33,405 nucleotides of DNA from an uncultured Rhodospirillales bacterium (GTDB lineage: Bacteria > Pseudomonadota > Alphaproteobacteria > Azospirillales > Azospirillaceae). Numbering within the stretch: position 1 is the stretch's first letter; the number at the start of each line of letters is the position of its first letter. The stretch lies in assembly GCA_903856295.1 (NCBI GenBank), contig CAIOBP010000108.1, positions 1 to 33,405 of the forward strand. Direction: 5' to 3'. The translations under genes were made by a program, and so were the position numbers. The notes beneath the pieces are model-generated. The model made no database searches and had not been told where the DNA came from. It saw nothing but the letters and a program-made list of their open reading frames with translations. Shown one piece after another: positions 9,701-32,099 of this stretch.

Positions 9701-12700
9701 TCAACCGCTTGAACCGACCAGGGGCAAGCCGGTCACCTGGGACCAAGTCTGCTGCTGGGCGGGCGTGAACGCCAGCAAGACCGTCGATGCCGAGAATGTC
9801 CGGGCGCCGGTTTTGGTCATCTGGGACAAAAAGCCGGTATCCAGCGCCATCAACTGACCGGCGGACAGGCCGCGCAGCTGCCCGCCGGTCAGCCCCTGAA
9901 TCTGCGGCTGCGACATGCTGTTCAGCACATCGCTGCCGATCACCGCGATCTGGGCCGGCGTCAGCTTCGCCACCTGACTGGCGCTCAAGCCGCGCATCTG
10001 TCCCGGGGTCAGCGCGGCGATGCTGGACAGGCTGATGCTCGACGGAGCCATGAGCGCCGCCACCTGATCGGCGCTCAGGCTTTGGAACTGGCTGGCGGAC
10101 AGCGAGTCGATCTGCGTCGCCGACAACGCCTTCACCTGGGCGGTGGAGAAGCCGTCCAACTGCTGGTTGCTCAAGCTGCCGATCTCGCTGGCGCTGAAGC
10201 TGCCGATCTGGCTGTTGGACAGCAGGCCGATCGAGGGGGCGGTGAGCGCGGCCAATTGCTCCGCGGTCATGTTTTTCAGGTCCGCCCCGCTCAGCCCCGC
10301 CAGCTGAGGGCCAGCCAGTGCCGAGACGACGCCGGGGCTGAGAGCCTGAAACTGGGCGGTGCTGAACGCCGCCAGCTGGCTCGCGGAGAACTGGCCGACC
10401 TGCGCGGCACTCAACCCGGCGATGTGATCGGGGCTCAGGCTTTTCAGTTGGGACGCCGACAACAGCGCCGTCTGATCGGCACCCAGCGCCTGCACCTGAC
10501 TGACCGACCAGGCGGCCAGTGACTTCAGGCCCTTGATTTGGGCCGAGCTCAGGGCCTGAACCTGCGCACCGGTCAAGCCGGCGAGCTGGTCGGCCTTCAG
10601 GCTGTTGAGTTGCGCCGCCGTCAGAGCCTGGATCGCCGGGACGCACATCTGAGCGAGCGTCCCGGCGCCCAGCGCACCGAGCTGGCCGGCGCTCAGGCTC
10701 ATCAGGGCAGGAACGCTCAGGCCGTTGAGCTGATCGGCGGTCAGAGCGGAGAGCTGCGCGGTGGAAAACGCCTTCGCCTGGGCCGCGCTCAGCCCCGCCA
10801 TGTCCGCGGCCGACAGGCTGCTTAGCTGGCTCGCGGTGAGCGCCGCCAGCTGAGCCGTGCCAAAGCCGGCGATCTGCTGCGCGCTCAGGGCGCCAAGCTG
10901 GCCGTTGGTCAGCGCCTGCATCTGGGGGGAGGTCAAGGCGCTCAGCTGGGCGGTGCTGAAGCCGTTCAGCAGACTGGTGCTCAACCCGCTGACCTGACTG
11001 GCGCTCAGCGACTTCAGCTGGCTCAGCGTCACGCCGGCAAATTGCGCGGACGACAGCAGGTTGAGCTGGGCGGCGCTCAGCGCCCCGATCTGGGAGCTGG
11101 ACAAGGCCTTGATCTGACCGGAGCCGAAGCCCTGTACCTGCGCGTCGGCCAAGCCGCCGATCTGGGTGGGCGTCAGGGCCGCCATCTGGGCGCTCGATAA
11201 ATTGGCCACCGGCAGGGCATTGAGCTGGTCGGTGGCCATCGCCTTCAGCTGAGCGCTGGTCAGGGCCGCAGTCTGGGTGGCCGACAACCCCGCGACCAGA
11301 GTGCCGCTCAGGGCTCCGATCTGGACCGTGGTCAGGGCCTTGATCTGGCTGACCGTCAGCGTGCCGAGCACGCTCGTGCCAAGGGCCGCCACCTGATCGG
11401 TGCTCAGTGCCGCGACCAGGGACGCGCTCAATCCGGCGACCTGGGCGCTGCTCAGGCTGTTGAGCTGGGCCGGCGTGAAGCCCCGCATCTGCCCCGAACT
11501 CAGGCTGTTGAGTTGGGCGACGGTCAGCGCCGCTTGCTGATCGCCGGTCAGGCCGGCCAGCTGGTCGGTGGTCAGGCTTTTGATCTGGGAGCCGCCCAGC
11601 GCCGCCACCTGATCGGCGGTCAGCGCGGCGACCTTGGCGGAGGTCAGGCTGGCCAGCTGCTTGGTCGTCAGCGCCTTGACCTGGGCGGCAGTCAACCCCT
11701 GGAGCTGCGTGCTGTTCAGGCTGTTGAGCTGATCGCTGGTCAGGGTGGCGACCTTGAGCCCGGTGATGTTGGCGCCCAGATTGCCGATCGCCAGATTGGC
11801 AAGCTGGGCCGTGCTCAAGGCCGCAACCTGTGCCGAGGACAGGGTGTAGACCTGATTGGCGGTCAGCGCCGCCACTTGGCTGGCGCTGAGCGAACTCGCC
11901 GGAATGACCGCCATCTGGTCGCTGGTCAGATATTGCAGCTGACTCGTGGTCAGCGCCTTGATGTTCAAGGATTTGAGTTGCTGCGCGCTCAAGGCCTGCA
12001 TCTGCGCGCCCCCCAGCGCCGCCAACTGGGCGGTGCCAAGCGAAGCGATGGCGATGGCCTGGATTTGCACCGCCGTCAGCCCGGCGATCTGATCGGTGGT
12101 CAGGGCCTTGAGGGTGACGGCCTTGATTTGGTCGGCGGTGAGGTTCGCGATCTGACCGGCGCTCATCGCCTGGAGCTGCGCCGCCGACAGCGCCCTGAGC
12201 TGCGCCGACGACATCTGAGCCAGTTGGTCGTAGGACAGCAGCGCCACCTGATCGCCGCTCAGTTTCGTGACCTGCGCGGGGTTCAGCGCCTGAATCTGAA
12301 CCTCGCTGCCCCCGGGCGACGGGTTGGCCGAGGCGTCCTGGGCCGGCGGTTTGGGCAGAGGGGGCGGGACCGGCCTGATTTCCGAAAGCGTGATCGTTTG
12401 CCAGTCACCCCAATAGGGGCCGTTGCTGGCGCGAATCTGGATGGTGTCGATCCCCGCCTTGTCTGCGGTCTTGATCGAAACACCGTCCAATGTCGACACG
12501 GATACTGCGGCAGCGGCACTGGTCGCGGTTTTCGTCTCGCCATTTATGGTGATGACCTGGCCGGCGCTATCGAAAATCTGGTATTGGACAATCGGCTTAC
12601 CGGCCGGGTCCGTGAAGCTGGCCAGATCGGAGAGCGTGACCGAGGTCGAGGTATTCGCCGTCGCGCTGCCGCCGGCCGTCGAATATGGCGCGTCAAGTCT

Positions 12701-13615
12701 GAAGATATGCACGGAATTATCCGTGATACCCAGCGCGAATTCATCGGCGGCACTATGCGGCTTGCTGATGATGAGGTCGGGCGCCGCGCCATCGTTGGCC
12801 GAAGGACCGGTGTTGTCGACCACCAACGCCGTCGCGCCGAAACCCGACACCACGGTCAGGATGTGTCCGGTGCCCGATTGCCAGTAGCCGCTGACGATGT
12901 CGCCGGGCCGCAGGCGTGACTTCCAGTTTGGATCGATCCCGGACGCACCACTATAGGCGGTGATCCACTCGCCGTTCGAGACCGGGCCGGTGATCGCCGC
13001 CGAACTGACCGGCAGCGCGGCACCGGCAATCGTGGCGATCTCGCTGGCCAGGATCCAGCAGCCATGATCATTCCACGGGGTTCCGACGAACGCATTCGCG
13101 ACGGCGGTAATATCCGAGGGCAAAGCCTGCCCGGATAGATGTGTGGCTGGCAGCATCGCGCTGGCCTGGGACGACGGCAGCGTGGTGAATGAGGCGCTGC
13201 ACAGCACATCGTCGCGATTGGCGATAAAGAAACCGCTGAAACTATAGCCACTCAGATCAAAGTCCGAGTCTATCAGAGATAAATATTCATTCTCACGATA
13301 GGTGGTTGATGATGTAAATGTTATATCATTAAAATAACCAAGGCCGGCATTGTAGTACCCATCCGCCGTCCATGCGAATGACACCGACAATGAGTAGCCC
13401 AAATCATGGCTCTTGGCAAAGGGCGTCGTATTACCATTGCCCTGAAGCCGACCCACCCCGGGAGACCAGGATACTGTATAATTATCAAGATCATAGCCGG
13501 ACAGCAGAAGATATTTTGGATTATCGCTCCCTGAGATCGCGAAGACATCCGACAGTTTTACAGCCTGCCCCGGTGAGAGGACATTCGACCCATTGTTTTT
13601 GATTGCGATTGTCAT
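9701..13615 (-). CDS. Giant octapeptide-repeat protein with NlpC/P60-like N-terminal domain
   Basis: Not recognised as a named family. The product is 1304 residues without a classical signal peptide. Residues about 1-150 are beta-rich. Residues about 170-270 look like a papain-like NlpC/P60 or CHAP fold: GTPWNDHGCW (Cys186), LRPGDIVSGYW, GTGHILTVV (His251) and LVVDN (Asp267). Residues about 320-415 resemble the beta-sandwich modules of type-I-secreted adhesins, ending GPYWGDWQTITLS. A Pro-rich linker (about 415-438) leads into roughly 105 tandem octads of the form x-L-(S/T)-x-x-Q-(L/V/I/M)-x (about 442-1275). The C-terminus has no RTX nonapeptides. The start has only a modest AAGGGCG ribosome-binding site. 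The first 400 bp are visibly AT-richer than the repeats. Inference: an exported or surface protein with an enzymatic or formerly enzymatic head on a long solenoid stalk. No secretion system is encoded nearby. Confidence 0.75.
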   Translation of the reverse strand: MTIAIKNNGSNVLSPGQAVKLSDVFAISGSDNPKYLLLSGYDLDNYTVSWSPGVGRLQGNGNTTPFAKSHDLGYSLSVSFAWTADGYYNAGLGYFNDITFTSSTTYRENEYLSLIDSDFDLSGYSFSGFFIANRDDVLCSASFTTLPSSQASAMLPATHLSGQALPSDITAVANAFVGTPWNDHGCWILASEIATIAGAALPVSSAAITGPVSNGEWITAYSGASGIDPNWKSRLRPGDIVSGYWQSGTGHILTVVSGFGATALVVDNTGPSANDGAAPDLIISKPHSAADEFALGITDNSVHIFRLDAPYSTAGGSATANTSTSVTLSDLASFTDPAGKPIVQYQIFDSAGQVITINGETKTATSAAAAVSVSTLDGVSIKTADKAGIDTIQIRASNGPYWGDWQTITLSEIRPVPPPLPKPPAQDASANPSPGGSEVQIQALNPAQVTKLSGDQVALLSYDQLAQMSSAQLRALSAAQLQAMSAGQIANLTADQIKAVTLKALTTDQIAGLTAVQIQAIAIASLGTAQLAALGGAQMQALSAQQLKSLNIKALTTSQLQYLTSDQMAVIPASSLSASQVAALTANQVYTLSSAQVAALSTAQLANLAIGNLGANITGLKVATLTSDQLNSLNSTQLQGLTAAQVKALTTKQLASLTSAKVAALTADQVAALGGSQIKSLTTDQLAGLTGDQQAALTVAQLNSLSSGQMRGFTPAQLNSLSSAQVAGLSASLVAALSTDQVAALGTSVLGTLTVSQIKALTTVQIGALSGTLVAGLSATQTAALTSAQLKAMATDQLNALPVANLSSAQMAALTPTQIGGLADAQVQGFGSGQIKALSSSQIGALSAAQLNLLSSAQFAGVTLSQLKSLSASQVSGLSTSLLNGFSTAQLSALTSPQMQALTNGQLGALSAQQIAGFGTAQLAALTASQLSSLSAADMAGLSAAQAKAFSTAQLSALTADQLNGLSVPALMSLSAGQLGALGAGTLAQMCVPAIQALTAAQLNSLKADQLAGLTGAQVQALSSAQIKGLKSLAAWSVSQVQALGADQTALLSASQLKSLSPDHIAGLSAAQVGQFSASQLAAFSTAQFQALSPGVVSALAGPQLAGLSGADLKNMTAEQLAALTAPSIGLLSNSQIGSFSASEIGSLSNQQLDGFSTAQVKALSATQIDSLSASQFQSLSADQVAALMAPSSISLSSIAALTPGQMRGLSASQVAKLTPAQIAVIGSDVLNSMSQPQIQGLTGGQLRGLSAGQLMALDTGFLSQMTKTGARTFSASTVLLAFTPAQQQTWSQVTGLPLVGSSG
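9790..12292 (-). repeat. 24-bp periodic coding array (about 105 octapeptide units)
   Basis: In-frame tandem repeats inside the giant gene. Each 24-nt unit encodes x-L-(S/T)-x-x-Q-hydrophobic-x, for example ALTADQVA, SLTTDQLA and ALTVAQLN. Units differ considerably in nucleotide sequence, so the array has diverged by substitution and is not a set of identical recent duplications. A few units are one or two residues longer or lack the Gln (for example around 11740-11800), which may mark breaks in the solenoid. Confidence 0.9.
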
Positions 13616-24424: not shown

Positions 24425-26320
24425 TTAACGCTTCTCGGCGGTGTATATGCTGTGGATACCGATCTGGTAGGTCCGGCCCTCCAACTGCTTCAGCAGAGCG
24501 GCCTCGAGGGTGCGGGCGGCGGGCTTGTCGTCAACCTCCCGGAGCGCCTTGTGCAGATCGGTCAGCGCTTCGCCGCTGGCGATCGCCACCAGATGATCGG
24601 CGCCATAAGGCGCTGCCACGACCAGCGGCACCAGATACGGCTTACCCAGGGGAATCTCCAGCGGGTCTTTCACCTCGGCGGTGTTGAGCGGATAAATGAG
24701 GTTGATCGTGCCGTCGGACGCGACATTGAACAGGGTGAAGAAGGTCTTGTTGTGCCCGTCGATGGCGAAGGAGACTTTGTCGCCCGCGACATGCACCGCG
24801 TCGCCGGGGTTCAGCGCCATGCCGAGACTGCGCCCTTCGGCCAGCTTTTTGATCAGCTCGGTCAGATGCCACTTGTCGGCCACGCTCTGGACTCTCGGCA
24901 AATCGGCCTGGGCATCGCCCTTCGGCTTCACGTCGGCCGACACGACCTGGCGCTTGAAGGCCCGGGTCTCCTCGGCGATGACCGCCGGGTTGGTAGCGAA
25001 ATCCGCAACCATGTCGCCCAGAGACGACGACACCCGCCGTCGGGCCACGTCCCAGGTCAGCAGGGGGCGCGTGGTGACGTCCACCACGTCGACATTGGTC
25101 AGCCCGCCCTTCAGCGCGCCGACATCGGGAGCGTTGACGATGGCCAGGGCGATGCGGGGCGCCACGACCGGAGCGGCGGCACTGGCGTTGGCCTTGACCT
25201 GCTCCTGGATCGTCTTGATGACCGGATCAGGCTTCGCGGCCGGCGCCGGGGGTGCCGCCGGAGCCGGAGACACGGCCGCCACCGCAACAGGCTTCGCCGC
25301 CGGGGCCGGAACGGGCTTGTTGGCGTTTTCCAGCAACAGCTTCGCGATATCCTTGAGCCCGTCCTGGGACGACTTCTTCGCGGCTTCCGCCGCCGTCGGG
25401 GTCAGGAAGGCGAGCTCGTTGTTCCGCTGCATGACGACGCCGCGCGCCTTGTTCGGGATCACCGAGGGGTGCTGCTGGCCCTCGAGCTTCATCCGAACCT
25501 CGTCGAGCACGTAGTCGCGCAGTTCCTCGATGGTGATGACGCCGTCCTTGTTGGCGTCGGCGGCGCCGCGCAGCCCCTCGGCCAGCGACCAACTCAACGC
25601 CCCGCGGATGTTGCCGCCGATTTCGACCTCCGGCGCCTCCTCGTGATCCTGAACGGCGCCGAAATAATAGACATTGGGCAACTCGGACGGAATCTGCGCC
25701 CAGGCCGGATCCATCGGCGGCAGGCGGTCTTCCGAGGCCTTGATCGGCAGATAGGGCACCGCCCGCACCTTCGGCTTGGTCAGGGCGGAATTGCTGAAGC
25801 CCCGGGTCATGGTCCCGGAGTGGCAGGCATCGACCACCACCAGCAGCTTGACCCCGGCATCGGAGGCGCGCTTGAACATCGCCCCCATTTCGTCGTCGAC
25901 GATGCGCTCGTAGGTGCCCTTGCCGCTGAGGGAGAAACCGGTCAGCATCAGCGTCGAATCGTAACCGCTGGCTTCGGAGCCTTTGACATGCTCGGGTTCC
26001 TGCCCGCCATGGCCGGCATAATGGAACACCAGAATGTCGTCCTTCTTGGCTTTCGCCAGCAGATCGTTCCAAGCGGCCATCACGGCGTCGCGGGTGACCG
26101 CCGCGTCGACCAGCAGGCGAACGTCGACCGCGCCGCCCTTGCGCAGGGCATCGGCGACATCGCGGGCGTCGTTGACCGCGCCATCGAGCTTGGGATTGAT
26201 GATCTGATAGTCGTCGATCCCGATGACCAAGCCATAAAGATTGGCCGCCATCGCCATTTTCGGGGCCACCGCCTCATACGACAGCGCCAGCATCGCCAGT
26301 CCGGCCAATATCCACCGCAT
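24425..26320 (-). CDS. Exported caspase-like (C14) protein with EF-hand and DUF4384-like C-terminus
   Basis: 631 residues. Signal peptide about 1-25 (ending AMA before ANLYGLVIG). The caspase-like domain (about 28-250) has the catalytic pair His104 in FHYAGHGG and Cys166 in VVVDACHSG. At 255-266 there is a canonical EF-hand loop, DANKDGVITIEE, with Asp, Asn, Asp, Thr and Glu at the calcium-binding positions. An Ala/Pro-rich linker (about 340-410) precedes a C-terminal domain (about 500-620) resembling DUF4384: GDKVSFAIDGHNKTFFTLFN and GTINLIYPLN. The ATG at 26320 has AGGAG close upstream; the frame is open further but overlaps the WD40-caspase gene. It starts 29 bp after that gene's stop, so the two are probably co-transcribed. 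Export of both caspases is shown by the signal peptides; the substrate is unknown. Confidence 0.88.
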   Translation of the reverse strand: MRWILAGLAMLALSYEAVAPKMAMAANLYGLVIGIDDYQIINPKLDGAVNDARDVADALRKGGAVDVRLLVDAAVTRDAVMAAWNDLLAKAKKDDILVFHYAGHGGQEPEHVKGSEASGYDSTLMLTGFSLSGKGTYERIVDDEMGAMFKRASDAGVKLLVVVDACHSGTMTRGFSNSALTKPKVRAVPYLPIKASEDRLPPMDPAWAQIPSELPNVYYFGAVQDHEEAPEVEIGGNIRGALSWSLAEGLRGAADANKDGVITIEELRDYVLDEVRMKLEGQQHPSVIPNKARGVVMQRNNELAFLTPTAAEAAKKSSQDGLKDIAKLLLENANKPVPAPAAKPVAVAAVSPAPAAPPAPAAKPDPVIKTIQEQVKANASAAAPVVAPRIALAIVNAPDVGALKGGLTNVDVVDVTTRPLLTWDVARRRVSSSLGDMVADFATNPAVIAEETRAFKRQVVSADVKPKGDAQADLPRVQSVADKWHLTELIKKLAEGRSLGMALNPGDAVHVAGDKVSFAIDGHNKTFFTLFNVASDGTINLIYPLNTAEVKDPLEIPLGKPYLVPLVVAAPYGADHLVAIASGEALTDLHKALREVDDKPAARTLEAALLKQLEGRTYQIGIHSIYTAEKR

Positions 26321-26349
26321 TGCAACTCTCCTATGACGCGCCATCGTCT

Positions 26350-29300
26350 TCAGTGAAACTTTCTGACCAGCGGGAAGTCTTCCTGCTCGCCGAGCGACTG
26401 CCATTTCGCCGCCTGGGAGTGGTTCGGGCTGACTTCCTTGGCCAGCACCGGCACCGTCTGCTTGACGTACCTCGCCAGATTGTTCGGATACACGATACCG
26501 GTTTCGTCGGCCGAGGCGCCGCCGGTCAACCCGCCGATCACCGCGTAGGCGAAAACGCCGTGCTCCGCCCTGCCGCTGCCCTGGGGTTTGTAGCCGTCGA
26601 GCGCCTCCTGATTCGAGGCCGCCGCCGCCAGCACCGAAATGCCGGCCTCGTCGTTGAGGTTGGCCAGGGCGTCAAAGGACGTGCCCTTGGCGAAAGCGCC
26701 GGAATGGCAGGTGTCGAGCACCAGCAGCACGTGCGCCTTCTTGCCGTTGATCGCCACCAGATGCTGCAACAGGGCGTCCTGGCCGAAGGCTTCCTTCTCC
26801 ACACTGTCCGGACCGGCGACATTCGCGGTGATGAAGTAGAACTTCCCGGCGGCCCGGGCGCCGCCGGCATCGCCATCCTCGCGCGTGCCGTGCCCGGCCA
26901 GATAGATGACCACGGTGTCGGCCGGGCGCAGCACGTCGCCCGAAGTCAAGGCGACGAACGCCTTTTCGATCATCTCCCGGCTGGCATCCTCGTTGGCCAT
27001 GGCGCCGCGACCGCCCTTGTACTCGGCGAAACTGACCTTGCGGTCGGCCGAGACCACCGGCACCATGACCTTCTCATAAAGATCGGCCACCCGGCCCTTC
27101 AGAGTCGAGGTCACGCCCTCGGCGTCGGCGACCGGGAAATTGAGGTGGAACGCCGGGTTGATGTAATTGTCGACCCCCGCCGCCAGCACGAACAGCCGGG
27201 GCTTGGTCGGGACCGGCGCCTTCTGCGCCGCCGCCGGCGGCGGCGCCGGGCGCCGGATCTCGATCTGGCCCGAGCTGGCGAAGGCCGAGCGGGCGCCGTC
27301 GTAAACCCTGAGTTCGATGCGATTGACGCCCGGATCCAGAGCAACCGTGCGGTCGAAGACCTGCCCCGCGGCCGCCGGAGCGACGATCGAGGTCAGATCG
27401 CGGCGGAAGGCGCGGGTCATGTCCTGACGATCGATGTTGCGATCATTGACATAAACGCCGATGTCGCCGACACCGCCGCCGCCATCGGCGACCCGGAAGC
27501 GCAGCTTCAACCGCGACACTTCGTCGGGAACCGTGACCGACAGCGCCGTCGAGCCGGCCGCCGCCGGAGCCGCGGGCGCCGAAACCGGAGCGGTGGCGGT
27601 GGGGGCCGCCGGAGCAGGGCCCGCCGGCCGGCTGGTGTCGCGCACGAAGCCGCGGGTGGCCATCTCGCTGATCGGCCGGCAGATTTCCGCGCCTCCCGGC
27701 GGCGTCCAGCAATATTCGAGAGTATCGATCTTCGGCAGAGGCTTCCGCTCGAAGCGCGAGCGCAAATCGCCGATCGCCGCGTAGGTCTTGGCGATCTCGG
27801 CCTCGTAACCGCCGGCGATCTTCTTCACCACCAGATCAGAGCTGTGCAGCAACTGGTAGACCTGGGCGAAAGTGATCCACTCCGGGTTCCCGCTCTTGCC
27901 CTTGTTGAAGTGGTAGCCGACCAGATCCTTGCCGCCCGCCTCCGCGTGATCGAAGAAGCCCTCGGGGGTCCAGGCAACCCAGCGCTGGCCATCGCCATGG
28001 ACGAACAGCGTCGCGCGCTCCTCGAGCGGCTTGCCGGCGCCATTCAGATTATACCAATGCAGGGTGCCGTCGCTGAGCGCGACCACCGCCATCGTGCCCG
28101 GACGGGTGATGGCGACCCCGGTCGCCATCGCGGGAATCGCGACCTTCTCGATCAGCGCCCCGGTGTTGTCGAACCAGCGCAGCCAGTAATCGCCGCCGAG
28201 CAGGAACGACATGCCGTCGGGGGCGATGGCCAGACTGTGGGTCCGTTCCTCGCCGTCCAGCCTGAGTTTGCGGTTGCCGACCATCGGCGCGGTGCTGCGG
28301 GACCAGTTGGTGACCTTGAGCCGGGGGGACTCGGTGACCGGCCGGCTGAGCGACGGATCGGCCTTGGGCGCCGGAGCATAGCTGCGCTCGCGCAAATCCA
28401 GGCGCATCGGACGCTGACCCTTGGCGGTAATGCCGAATTCCAGGGTCAATCCGTCATCGGAGACCGCGAAGCGGCCGGCGGTGATTTCGCGGAAATTAGC
28501 GATGCCGCTGACCACCTCCATCAGCTTGCGGCCAGCACCGATCCGCCCCCAAGAAGGAGCGGCACTGACAAACACAGCCTCACCGTTGCCACGCGACTCG
28601 ATCTGAGTGATGGAATCCTTGGCGACCGGAATATCCACCGCCCGCCCGGAACCTGCCCCGGACCAGACCCGGATGATCCCGCTGACGCCGTCGATGGTGG
28701 CGCTGCCGCCCGCCGCCAGCAGCAGTTGCCTGCCGTCCTCGATCCAGGTCACCGCCGCGAGATTGCCGCCCCTGAGATCGGAGGTATCGGGCGTGGCGCG
28801 CGATTTCAGGTCGCTGCCCGACAGGAGTTCGACCTTGGGCGAATCGTTCATCCCGACCGCCAGCAGGCTGCCATCGGGAGAAAAAGCCACCGAGAACGGC
28901 CGGCTGGTGCCGGGCAAATCGCGCTTAGCAATCAGTTTCATCGACGCATCATACAGCCGGACCGCACCGTCGAACGCGGTGGTGGCCATGCGGCCGTCAC
29001 GGGCGAAGGCCACCCAGTTCGCCGATTTCTGACCGTAATTGGCGTCCACTCCGACGACACGGCCGCTGCCCATGTCGTAGACAGTCACTCCGGCCCCGGA
29101 GCCGAAGGCCGCCGCCAGACGCTTGCCATCGGGAGAAAAGGCCAGATGCATGACCTCGCTCGGCATCCGGGGCATGCGCTGCACGATTTTCCGGGTCGCA
29201 ACATCGAACAAATAGAGCGAGGCTCGGCCCTCCCACTGCAAGCCGCTCTGACCGCCGGCCGCCACGGTTTTGCCGTCGGGGGACAGCGCGACGCTGTACA

Positions 29301-29616
29301 GGCGATCCTCGGGACCGGTGCCGATCGGCACCCGCAACGTCGCCACCGGACGACCGTCGGGCAGGGACCACAAGCGCACCGTCTTGTCGTCGGAGGCGGT
29401 CGCCGCCAACCGACCGGACGCATCCACCGACACCCGGTTGATGATCGCGGTGTGCATCCCGGTTTCGATGCGCAGGAGCGGCGCCGAAGGCGGCTCGCTC
29501 GCCGGCGCGGCCTCGGCGGCCAACGCCCCGGCCGACATCCCGCACAGCAGCGGCGCGGCCAACATCAAAGGAGCCAGGATTGCCAGAGCCCTGCGGCCAG
29601 ACTGGACCAAACGCAT
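26350..29616 (-). CDS. Exported WD40-repeat/caspase-like (C14) fusion protein
   Basis: 1088 residues. A strong signal peptide (about 1-33, ending GALA). Residues about 45-560 form one or two beta-propellers with WD40-type repeats, for example GRLAATASDDKTVRLWSLPDG, YSVALSPDGKTVAAGG, HLAFSPDGKRLAAAFG and SVAFSPDGSLLAVG. Then comes the connector often seen in such proteins (WVAWTPEGFFDHAEAGGKDLVGYH, about 580-605), a beta-sandwich (about 705-800), and a C-terminal caspase-like domain (about 805-1088) with His909 in IYLAGHG and Cys970 in VLDTCHSG. Two Ala/Pro-rich linkers separate the modules. The ATG at 29616 has GGAGAGGGG upstream and gives the signal peptide. The catalytic dyad is intact. The propeller would be the sensor or docking part; that is inference from fusion architecture. 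Confidence 0.9.
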   Translation of the reverse strand: MRLVQSGRRALAILAPLMLAAPLLCGMSAGALAAEAAPASEPPSAPLLRIETGMHTAIINRVSVDASGRLAATASDDKTVRLWSLPDGRPVATLRVPIGTGPEDRLYSVALSPDGKTVAAGGQSGLQWEGRASLYLFDVATRKIVQRMPRMPSEVMHLAFSPDGKRLAAAFGSGAGVTVYDMGSGRVVGVDANYGQKSANWVAFARDGRMATTAFDGAVRLYDASMKLIAKRDLPGTSRPFSVAFSPDGSLLAVGMNDSPKVELLSGSDLKSRATPDTSDLRGGNLAAVTWIEDGRQLLLAAGGSATIDGVSGIIRVWSGAGSGRAVDIPVAKDSITQIESRGNGEAVFVSAAPSWGRIGAGRKLMEVVSGIANFREITAGRFAVSDDGLTLEFGITAKGQRPMRLDLRERSYAPAPKADPSLSRPVTESPRLKVTNWSRSTAPMVGNRKLRLDGEERTHSLAIAPDGMSFLLGGDYWLRWFDNTGALIEKVAIPAMATGVAITRPGTMAVVALSDGTLHWYNLNGAGKPLEERATLFVHGDGQRWVAWTPEGFFDHAEAGGKDLVGYHFNKGKSGNPEWITFAQVYQLLHSSDLVVKKIAGGYEAEIAKTYAAIGDLRSRFERKPLPKIDTLEYCWTPPGGAEICRPISEMATRGFVRDTSRPAGPAPAAPTATAPVSAPAAPAAAGSTALSVTVPDEVSRLKLRFRVADGGGGVGDIGVYVNDRNIDRQDMTRAFRRDLTSIVAPAAAGQVFDRTVALDPGVNRIELRVYDGARSAFASSGQIEIRRPAPPPAAAQKAPVPTKPRLFVLAAGVDNYINPAFHLNFPVADAEGVTSTLKGRVADLYEKVMVPVVSADRKVSFAEYKGGRGAMANEDASREMIEKAFVALTSGDVLRPADTVVIYLAGHGTREDGDAGGARAAGKFYFITANVAGPDSVEKEAFGQDALLQHLVAINGKKAHVLLVLDTCHSGAFAKGTSFDALANLNDEAGISVLAAAASNQEALDGYKPQGSGRAEHGVFAYAVIGGLTGGASADETGIVYPNNLARYVKQTVPVLAKEVSPNHSQAAKWQSLGEQEDFPLVRKFH

Positions 29617-29691
29617 GCCGACAACCCCTCTCCACCAAACCTCAAACCCCCGCGGCACCGGCGAGGGGCCGCGGCGCTGACAGATTATAGA

Positions 29692-29725
29692 TTGGGAGGG
29701 GCGGCGAACCGGCAACCCCTCCCAA
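29692..29725. other. 10-bp perfect inverted repeat between lipoprotein and WD40-caspase genes
   Basis: TTGGGAGGGG...CCCCTCCCAA with a 14-nt loop, 15 bp after the lipoprotein stop codon. No T-run follows in the direction of transcription, so it is not a clear intrinsic terminator. It may stabilise or attenuate the mRNA. Just beyond it a perfect minus-strand TATAAT (29684-29689) could be the -10 box of a promoter for the two caspase genes, but no good -35 is seen at 16-18 bp. Confidence 0.4.
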
Positions 29726-29739
29726 CCGACTTTACATCA

Positions 29740-30570
29740 TCAGGTCACTTTTTCCCAGCCAGTCGCTTCCGCGGCATAGGAGGCGCCGTCCTGCTTCAAG
29801 GACGTCTGCTTCGCCTGGAGCGAGATGAGGGAAGCCGCAACCGGCGTGCGCGCCGCCGGCCTGCTCGAGGTGGACGGCCGGGGCCGGGACTGGGTCGCCG
29901 CGGAGCCCGCCGACGGCGGCGGAACGGTCGAATCGATCTGGTTGGCCGCATACTGGTACTCGGCCATACGCTTGTCGGAATCGCCGGTGATGCCGTTCAA
30001 GATATCCACGTCTTTTCTGGCCTGGGTGGCCAGCATGCGCAGCTTGGTCTGGGCCTCTTCGCGAGAAATCGTCTTGGCCGCATACTGAGCGCGGATATTC
30101 TTGGCCGCCTCACGACGGCAAGCGCTCAAATTCTTGAAGGCCAGCTGGGTCTTGTCGAGTTGGGCTTCGTCGCCCTTCATGTCGGAGATCATCGACGGGA
30201 CCGCCTGATCCCGGCTCTGGTCCATCTTGCTCTTCCAGTAGCCGCCGAGACCGCCGGCCACGGCGCCGGCCGCGGCGCCGATCAGCGCGCTCTGCCAGTT
30301 GCCGCCCGCGAGCCCGCCGATCAGCGCGCCGCCCAAGGCGCCGATCGCGGCGCCCTTGATCATGTCTTCCGCGAAATAGTCACCGGTGGAGTCGAGGGCG
30401 ACCACGTAGGCCCGGCACGAGTCGGTGCCATCGTCCGGCCCGATCCGCTGGGTCCGGGTGGTACAACCGGTGAGGCTGCTCAGCACGAGGGACGCACTGA
30501 CCACAAAGGCCACCCCCGATCGCGCCAACCTGGTTGCGAAATTGCTACCCTTGCTCGGCATCTCTTCCAT
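29740..30570 (-). CDS. Glycine-zipper lipoprotein
   Basis: 276 residues. The N-terminus has a lipoprotein signal ending in the lipobox LTGC (Cys36). Residues about 70-115 form a Gly-zipper membrane hairpin (IKGAAIGALGGALIGG and LIGAAAGAVAGGLGGYW). The remainder is a helical domain (about 120-210) with many Ala/Lys/Arg residues, then a low-complexity Ser/Pro/Arg stretch and a short conserved-looking tail. The ATG at 30570 is preceded by GAGGAGAGGG. It should be anchored in the envelope by the lipid and could insert through the glycine zipper. It is the first of three co-oriented genes encoding exported proteins, 123 bp upstream of the WD40-caspase. A membrane anchor or pore-like partner for the caspases is a reasonable but unproven idea. 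Confidence 0.8.
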   Translation of the reverse strand: MEEMPSKGSNFATRLARSGVAFVVSASLVLSSLTGCTTRTQRIGPDDGTDSCRAYVVALDSTGDYFAEDMIKGAAIGALGGALIGGLAGGNWQSALIGAAAGAVAGGLGGYWKSKMDQSRDQAVPSMISDMKGDEAQLDKTQLAFKNLSACRREAAKNIRAQYAAKTISREEAQTKLRMLATQARKDVDILNGITGDSDKRMAEYQYAANQIDSTVPPPSAGSAATQSRPRPSTSSRPAARTPVAASLISLQAKQTSLKQDGASYAAEATGWEKVT

Positions 30571-30704: not shown

Positions 30705-31832
30705 TCAAGAAATCCCCCGGCCCGCGATCCAGCCGCCGCCCAGCAGACGCTCGCCCCGGTAGGCAACGCAGGCCTGACCGGGAGCGACTCCATGCTGGGG
30801 TTCAGCGAACACGACCTCGGCCTCGCCGCCATCGACCGGACGCAGCGTCGCCGCAACCGCCGGCTGTGCGGACCGCAGCTTGACCGACACGGCCAGCCCC
30901 TCGGCGGGCGGTGGCGCCTCGTCCAGCCAGTTCAGCCCGGTGAGGCGCAGCTGCGACCGGGCCAGGGCCTGACGCGGCCCGACCACCACCCGCCGGCCGC
31001 CGGCATCGATATCGACCACAAACAGCGGCTGGTTGGCCTCGCCGCGCCGGGCTCCCAGCCCCAAGCCCTTGCGCTGGCCGATGGTATAATGAACGGTGCC
31101 CTGGTGCCGACCCAACACCCGGCCCGCCATGTCCACGATCTCCCCCGGCGCGGCCGCCTCGGGCCGGCGCGCGGTGACCAGGGCGGCATAGCTGCCCTCG
31201 GGCACGAAGCAAATGTCCTGACTGTCGGGCTTGGCCGCGACGTCCAGGCCAAAACGGCGGGCCAGCGCCCGCGTCTCGGCCTTGTTGAGATCGCCGAGCG
31301 GAAAGCGCAGAAACTCCAGTTGCTCCCGGGTGGTCGCGAACAGAAAGTAGCTCTGATCACGCCCGGCCTCGGCGCCCCGGTGCAATTCCGGGCCCCGGCC
31401 GCCGGCGAGGCGGCGAACATAATGTCCGGTGGCCATGGCATCGGCGCCAAGCTCGCGGGCCGTGGCCAGCAAATCCTGAAACTTGATGCGCTGATTGCAG
31501 CGGACACAGGGAATCGGCGTCTCGCCCCGCGAATAGCTGGCGACGAAATCCTCGATCACCGCCTCGGAGAAACGGGATTCGAAATCGAGGACGTAATGGG
31601 GAATGCCCAGGGTTTCGGCGACCCGGGCGGCATCGTAGATGTCCTGCCCGGCGCAACACGCCCCCTTGCGCCCCAGCGCCATGCCGTGATCGTAGAGTTG
31701 GAGCGTGATGCCAACGACCTCGTAGCCCTGCTCGACGAGCACGGCCGCCGTCACCGATGAATCCACACCGCCCGACATCGCGACCACGACCCGCGTCGCC
31801 ACGGCGGGCTTGTCAAATCCGAGAGAATTCAT
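30705..31832 (-). CDS. mnmA: tRNA-specific 2-thiouridylase MnmA
   Basis: Cytoplasmic enzyme that adds the 2-thio group to the wobble uridine of tRNAs for Lys, Glu and Gln. It is 375 residues, the usual length. The PP-loop [10 protein letters not shown] is near the N-terminus. The two catalytic cysteines are Cys109 in PIPCVRCN and Cys208 in DSQDICFVP. The middle TGHY motif and the C-terminal RNA-binding beta-barrel ([12 protein letters not shown]) are present. The ATG at 31832 gives the normal N-terminus; longer frames upstream read into skewed intergenic sequence. It appears to be transcribed alone. Confidence 0.96.
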
Positions 31833-32099
31833 CGGCTCCGAAAGTCCCCAGGCCCGAGAGCCCCCGCCCGCCAAAGGCCGGGGCCGCCCCACGCCGCGAA
31901 CCGCCCCACAGCCGCGGACCGCAGGAGCACGAAACCGCGCGAGCCTCCGCCGCGGTCACCGGCAACCACCCCACCCGCCCGGACACCACCGAACAGGTCA
32001 CAACCACCCACGCCCCAACCCACACGCCGGGGGTCTCGCGCAAGCCGACGCACGCGGCAACCGCGAACACGCACCTCTGAACACCCTCAGAACCGCGTG
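31833..32099. other. Intergenic stretch with strong strand skew
   Basis: No recognisable gene. On the plus strand it is unusually rich in A and C and poor in T (for example ACCACCCACGCCCCAACCCACAC-like runs near 32003-32025). Frames are open across it on both strands, but the products are of low complexity (Pro/Arg/Thr or Gly/Val/Arg) and resemble nothing known. Confidence 0.5.

Follow-up and report, generated by a model that had tools for sequence, protein, structure and literature searches.

The stretch analysed here (the window, 33,405 nucleotides) is contig CAIOBP010000108.1 of an uncultured Rhodospirillales bacterium (assembly GCA_903856295.1, 4.0 Mb, 99% complete). Between positions 24425 and 30570 it carries a cassette of three tandem genes on the minus strand, which encode a lipoprotein and two exported caspases. 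We propose, with a little less than even confidence, that this cassette constitutes an envelope proteolytic module, in which Arg-specific periplasmic caspases would be anchored at the outer membrane and processed on activation, probably by envelope damage. An earlier interpretation of the same DNA, made from the letters alone (the sequence-only reading), had already described the cassette; what is new is the likeness of the lipoprotein to TagQ, the neighbourhood of the type VI secretion system (T6SS) in relatives, the recurrence of a TR[GA]F motif along disordered linkers, and the presence of serpins.

Three genes for exported proteins

The first gene (29740..30570; all cassette features lie on the minus strand) encodes a lipoprotein of 276 amino acids, with a signal peptide ending in the lipobox L-T-G-C36 (30463..30570) and a glycine-zipper hairpin (30238..30363; PF13441, Gly-zipper_YMGG, 39 bits against a cut-off of 28.9). 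The lipid cysteine is invariant across 16 aligned lipoproteins, and the residue at Cys+2 is Thr, with no Asp retention signal, as in outer-membrane types. Residues 27-209 matched positions 16-205 of the 301-position model NF041250 (TagQ) at 62 bits, and this model was matched by all 16 lipoproteins (that of the window and 15 homologues), with a best E-value of 2.8e-20, far below its 300-bit cut-off; judging by these scores, the protein would be a distant TagQ relative at most, and not TagQ. Envelope damage appears the likeliest trigger because TagQ-dependent signalling in Pseudomonas aeruginosa senses outer-membrane damage (PMC11881912), a parallel that is only as close as this distant similarity.

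About 125 bases further, the second gene (26350..29616) encodes an exported WD40-caspase of 1088 amino acids, starting at the ATG at 29616 (an in-frame TTG further upstream, at 29715, is less likely). A signal peptide, a double beta-propeller, linkers, a small beta domain and a caspase domain follow one another in this protein, which scored 68 bits for WD40 (cut-off 27) and 28.9 bits for Peptidase_C14 (PF00656, cut-off 21.4); its AlphaFold2 model had a predicted local distance difference test (pLDDT) score of 77. The propeller matched structures such as the designed 7-bladed propeller 7bie_A (Z 35.6, root-mean-square deviation (rmsd) 2.2, 283 residues aligned), and among the matches listed by a fold search with the full model (VIA-align) only propellers appeared. 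The caspase domain (26392..27195) holds His909 (26890-26892) and Cys970 (26707-26709), both invariant in 16 of 16 aligned WD40-caspases.

The third gene (24425..26320) follows after about 29 bases and encodes a second exported caspase, of 631 amino acids (model pLDDT 75), which we named EFcasp and which combines an EF-hand-like loop with a C-terminal DUF4384 domain (24572..24787; PF14326, 30.4 bits, cut-off 27). Its start is the ATG that follows GGAGAG, the ATG of the open reading frame list (26404) lying upstream and overlapping the WD40-caspase gene; clear purine-rich ribosome sites indeed precede the first (GGAG) and third starts of the cassette. The caspase domain (25460..26230; Peptidase_C14, 66.4 bits against 21.4) contains His104 (26009-26011) and Cys166 (25823-25825), invariant in 18 of 18 aligned homologues, and also the EF-hand-like loop DANKDGVITIEE (25523..25558), which is conserved in the EFcasp alignment and matches the canonical EF pattern, with an EF-hand_5 score of 19.5 bits, below the cut-off of 25.9. 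The EFcasp model resembled 3bij_A (Z 24.1, 243 residues aligned, rmsd 3.3), metacaspase-9 (8a53_D, Z 23.7) and MALT1 (3uo8_C, Z 22.0), and was closest to C14 folds of the Arg/Lys type, namely metacaspases 4 and 9 and MALT1. NF047832 (EACC1-associated caspase) gave 34 and 47 bits on the two cassette caspases, below its cut-off of 140.

These results bear out most of the sequence-only reading: three co-oriented genes for exported proteins, with AxA signal peptides and a lipobox visible by eye (the way in which all signal peptides were judged, in homologues as well), a glycine-zipper lipoprotein as first product, one caspase fused to beta-propeller repeats, and two intact dyads, which fall on the same residues when counted from the ATGs. 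Envelope stress, programmed death or protein processing had been suggested there as a possible role, with the three proteins as sensor, effector and membrane partner; such roles are conjectural. That the caspases, once activated, kill the cell in programmed death or in defence against phage would agree with the PADLOC caspase model, which matched both proteases (2.5e-20 and 4.6e-9), and with the use of caspases as effectors in nucleoside triphosphate-dependent conflict systems (PMC7159879). Such systems, however, use cytoplasmic ATPase or STAND partners, absent here, whereas both cassette proteases are exported; moreover, the neighbours are the housekeeping genes mnmA (30705-31892), clpS and clpA (24255-21594), and the window showed neither mobile elements nor further defence genes. 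We therefore regard a killing function as very improbable.

Arginine motifs in the linkers

The proposal of an envelope proteolytic module rests in part on short Arg motifs, visible by alignment within otherwise variable Pro/Ala linkers. The strict motif, [TS]R[GA]F.R, occurred 34 times in 23,447 amino acids of the WD40-caspases of the window protein's clade (21 rows, from alpha- and gammaproteobacteria), against 0.2 expected from a background of 472,597 amino acids of neighbouring proteins, and was absent from 40 WD40-caspases outside this clade. A loose form was found in all 21 rows, with two or three copies in 17 of them. In the window protein, TRGFVR (residues 654-659; 27640..27657) lies in linker 1, with a proposed cut at R655|G656 and with R655 invariant in the alignment, and TRAFRR (734-739; 27400..27417) in linker 2, with a proposed cut at R735|A736. 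EFcasp carries TRGF (172-175; 25796..25807) behind its catalytic Cys166, where autocleavage at R173|G174 is possible, and TRAFKR (452-457; 24950..24967), with a proposed cut at R453|A454, in a loop that is an insertion in its own genus. At all four sites the AlphaFold2 models showed pLDDT values below 50 (segments 650-692 and 730-750 of the WD40-caspase, 168-181 and 447-466 of EFcasp).

Outside metazoans, the C14 enzymes characterised so far cleave after Arg or Lys (PMC5756287). In view of this basic-P1 rule and of the disordered linkers in which the motifs stand, the simplest reading is that they are putative Arg-specific cleavage or autocleavage sites. Copies of the motif were more alike within a protein (identity 0.89) than across proteins (0.65; permutation p 0.0004), which would follow if all copies were recognised by a single reader. 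In a related genome (G056), the motif of the WD40-caspase was changed to TRSARRRR and EFcasp carried TRAARRR.

Concerted variation would be expected equally if the motif served as a docking site for a common partner, such as the lipoprotein or an OmpA or DUF4384 protein, and were not cut at all. Such neighbours do carry TRGF, RRGF or VRGF (L040_6, L040_9 and L042_4), and these may be additional substrates or partners marked by the motif. The position of the sites in disordered linkers between domains, their resemblance to serpin bait loops (see below) and the basic-P1 rule of this protease class nevertheless argue for cleavage, and docking alone seems to us a doubtful explanation. Still less probable is a housekeeping envelope protease, engaged in constitutive maturation or turnover of periplasmic or outer-membrane proteins, with linkers that are merely exposed: the toxin-free neighbourhood would suit it, as would the DUF4384, OmpA and peptidoglycan-binding partners found at related loci, but the cassette is distributed patchily even within its own genus, and the linker motif is conserved far beyond what accidental exposure would produce. 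Other substrates were sought genome-wide by DNA pattern, which gave 39 matches against 24 in a reversed control; among the 30 examined, most were out of frame, the in-frame occurrences were few, three of them being those of the cassette, and no convincing new substrate emerged.

Mechanistically, the proteolytic module may be pictured as follows. The WD40-caspase would work beside the lipoprotein in the periplasm, where the lipoprotein would anchor or gate it at the outer membrane and the propellers would bind a signal or a partner. A disturbance, probably of the envelope, would alter the complex of the two and render the caspases active, both cutting after Arg if they follow the rule of their class, while the EF loop may make EFcasp Ca2+-dependent. 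Cleavage at [TS]R|[GA]F.R, by each enzyme on itself or by one caspase on the other, would then detach WD40 part, small beta domain and caspase from one another and would process EFcasp, and the active caspases would go on to act on further envelope substrates. The module would be wired to the T6SS in relatives, not in the organism of the window, and exported serpins with look-alike bait loops would restrain such proteases in some lineages.

Gene neighbourhoods, type VI secretion and serpins

The survey of conservation covered 82 genomes, nominally of the order but in reality of one family, 61 of which gave some WD40-caspase match, many to WD40 repeats only. Lipoprotein and WD40-caspase genes were adjacent in most homologous loci: the lipoprotein gene lies directly upstream in the window's own genus (G049, G050), in Azospirillum, in two other Azospirillaceae genera, in many Acetobacteraceae (including Roseomonas, Belnapia, Neoroseomonas and Caldovatus) and in Zavarzinia, and downstream in a Methylococcales metagenome-assembled genome (MAG; L088). 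EFcasp accompanies the pair in the own genus, Azospirillum, G055, G056 and the Methylococcales MAG. In the own genus it lies downstream in the same orientation; in most Azospirillum loci it is upstream and divergent, and in G015 convergent. It was not found at the Acetobacteraceae loci, which carry the pair only. The core is therefore the pair, and the second caspase is variable. The varied orientations point to selection for co-occurrence and not to a frozen neighbourhood. A neighbourhood search of this kind had been named beforehand as one way to refute the cassette, and it found the genes kept together; the idea of an envelope-directed unit of three holds as regards this clustering in relatives, and fails as regards a fixed trio.

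In several lineages the pair stands in or beside T6SS genes. In Roseomonas oleicola it is embedded in a complete T6SS cluster, between TssM-TssL-TssK-TagH-VgrG and ClpV-TssB-TssC, and T6SS genes lie within 10 kb of it in six other Acetobacteraceae loci (L073, L074, L075, L081, L087 and L090); in Azospirillum it is followed by tssL-tssM-vgrG. All three cassette genes are so placed in the Azospirillaceae genome G054, where one contig carries lipoprotein, WD40-caspase, vgrG and a TssC-like gene, and another ClpV-EFcasp-TssB-TssC-TssF-TssG. The TssC-like gene (L043:9526-12072), a neighbour of vgrG and the cassette, encodes a protein of 849 amino acids, TssC-like in its C-terminal half (218 bits against a cut-off of 271.5). 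On the WD40-caspase tree, a quick tree with long branches, T6SS adjacency changed state at least 8 times, and the TssM linked to the pair in Azospirillum belongs to a lineage separate from both the main T6SS copy and the Acetobacteraceae one; these different TssM lineages indicate independent associations.

Such data, together with the TagQ-like lipoprotein, could mean that the pair belongs to T6SS regulation, as a TagQRST-like sensor in which a caspase replaces TagR, the cassette of the window being a remnant or an unlinked copy. Against this, TssB, TssK and VgrG were not found in the genome of the window, 99% complete as it is, nor in the cassette-bearing G050, and many cassette loci lack any T6SS gene within 10 kb. 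Conversely, G047 and G048 possess a T6SS, and no close cassette turned up in either. The window's genome has TssL-TssM only, and this orphan pair belongs to a lineage common to all five genomes of the genus, G047 and G048 included, and is not of the cassette-linked type. T6SS use thus appears lineage-specific and not the common denominator, and we consider a T6SS accessory role rather unlikely as a general account, although the likeliest of the alternatives weighed here; a T6SS link in the window's own genome was rejected on the same grounds. The orphan genes (L057, contig C245:2964-7426; also L058 and L062) form a T6SS-like membrane pair, present in the window's genome and in G050. ClpV matches close to the window, and others at certain Azospirillum loci, proved to be housekeeping clpA and clpB genes.

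Serpins, which have been called enigmatic in prokaryotes (PMC8233489), accompany caspase genes in several genomes, namely G056, G003, G073 and a Rhodospira MAG. An unbiased scan found serpins in 9 of 385 alphaproteobacterial genomes, that of the window included, and in four of the others (G366, G276, G162 and G368) the serpin has caspase genes as neighbours, and in at least three it directly adjoins one. The serpin of the window's genome, which has a signal peptide and is unlinked to the cassette, carries the bait loop GTEAAAATAVTLGR|GFPSR, i.e. GR|GF, with a basic residue at P1 and a site that resembles the motif of the caspases. Bait loops read SR|AF, SR|GL and SR|GM in L042, L049 and L051, and elsewhere TR|AG (two loops), TR|AA (two loops, in one of which the site is displaced by one residue), LR|TA and EK|SM. 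P1 Arg alone was rejected as evidence, since two serpins without caspase neighbours (L177 and L178) also have it (ER|TA and IR|VS). A serpin-controlled cascade of periplasmic caspases in alphaproteobacteria, in which a lipoprotein-anchored WD40-caspase and its partner would activate each other at TR|[GA]F linkers and the serpin would shut them off, and which in several lineages would serve the T6SS as a damage sensor, is a speculative extension that we judge unlikely as it stands; if true, it would give the rare proteobacterial serpins a natural target.

Several observations weigh against the proteolytic module or its control by serpins. Cleavage at the motifs by the cassette caspases is itself something that we infer; Arg173, although invariant in the EFcasp alignment, may be structural, and the lipoprotein falls well short of the TagQ equivalog score (62 against 300 bits). 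Only one clade has the motif, so that its association with EFcasp is not phylogenetically independent (with only 3 motif changes on the tree, this association had no statistical support and was discarded as independent evidence), and the Acetobacteraceae WD40-caspases lack it, which implies that the core pair works without it. A serpin had been predicted beforehand in the cassette-bearing sisters G049 and G050 and was absent from both, serpins being found in one of the five genomes of the genus. The own serpin adjoins an exported papain-like protease. Trypsin-caspase fusions occur in G366, G276 and the Rhodospira MAG, and probably, by length and homology, also in G162 and G368; the caspases are thus not the only candidate targets of serpins.

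The papain-serpin locus (L176, contig C224, 6028-13156, minus strand) encodes an exported papain-family C1 protease with a C-terminal extension, the serpin, an OmpA protein, a protein of 308 amino acids and a peptidoglycan-binding, lipoprotein-like DUF4384 protein. This genome encodes two large proteins with ALTTAQ repeats (PF20080, 357 and 251 bits), one within the window (9701-13615, minus strand), the other (L176:13305-15368) directly upstream of the protease and serpin genes at this locus. Five loci (L180, L181, L182, L179 and L111) are clusters of a caspase or caspase-like protein, a trypsin-caspase-DUF4384 fusion and a serpin, with an OmpA- or TPR-type gene in some; the first caspase-like protein of L180 has apparently lost both dyad residues (a pseudo-caspase). 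In the window's genome, a frame of 2964 amino acids, open from the contig edge (L061, contig C228:1-8895), holds a caspase domain near its C-terminus.

Relation to known systems

To our knowledge, the physiological roles of bacterial caspases are mostly unknown. The locus offers a concrete hypothesis for bacterial caspases and serpins, which specifies where cleavage would occur and what fragments would result, and names a compartment, a partner in the membrane and a possible inhibitor. Its recurrent placement in T6SS clusters ties caspase-type proteolysis to a bacterial weapon, a link of which we found no report in the literature searched.

Like TagQ of the P. aeruginosa TagQRST-PpkA pathway, the cassette lipoprotein is exported and has the same zipper and following helical region, and its homologues lie in T6SS clusters in some relatives. 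It differs in being paired with a WD40-caspase, in its score far under the equivalog cut-off, and in a genome without detected TssB, TssK or VgrG (the search did not extend to TagR, TagS, TagT or PpkA). TssW of Acidovorax citrulli (PMC12607579), compared by its description only, is likewise an outer-membrane T6SS accessory protein; no caspase or WD40 domain is named for it in that paper. The solved structures nearest in fold to EFcasp include those of the plant metacaspases AtMC4 and AtMC9 (Z 23-24); EFcasp differs in being bacterial and, by prediction, periplasmic. AtSerpin1 is given as a suicide inhibitor of metacaspase 9 (Vercammen 2006, as listed in PMC10609998), and provides the precedent here; the serpin of the window's genome is, however, unlinked, and a caspase is only a candidate target for it. 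Finally, the WD40 orthocaspases of cyanobacteria (PMC5756287) share with the window protein a C14 His/Cys dyad and beta-propellers in a single protein, and the latter differs from them by Sec export, an N-terminal double propeller, a fixed lipoprotein partner and a conserved linker motif. The cassette thus represents a known enzyme class in a new arrangement, set apart from the standard WD40-caspase by its compartment, its partner, its motif and its recurrent T6SS placement.

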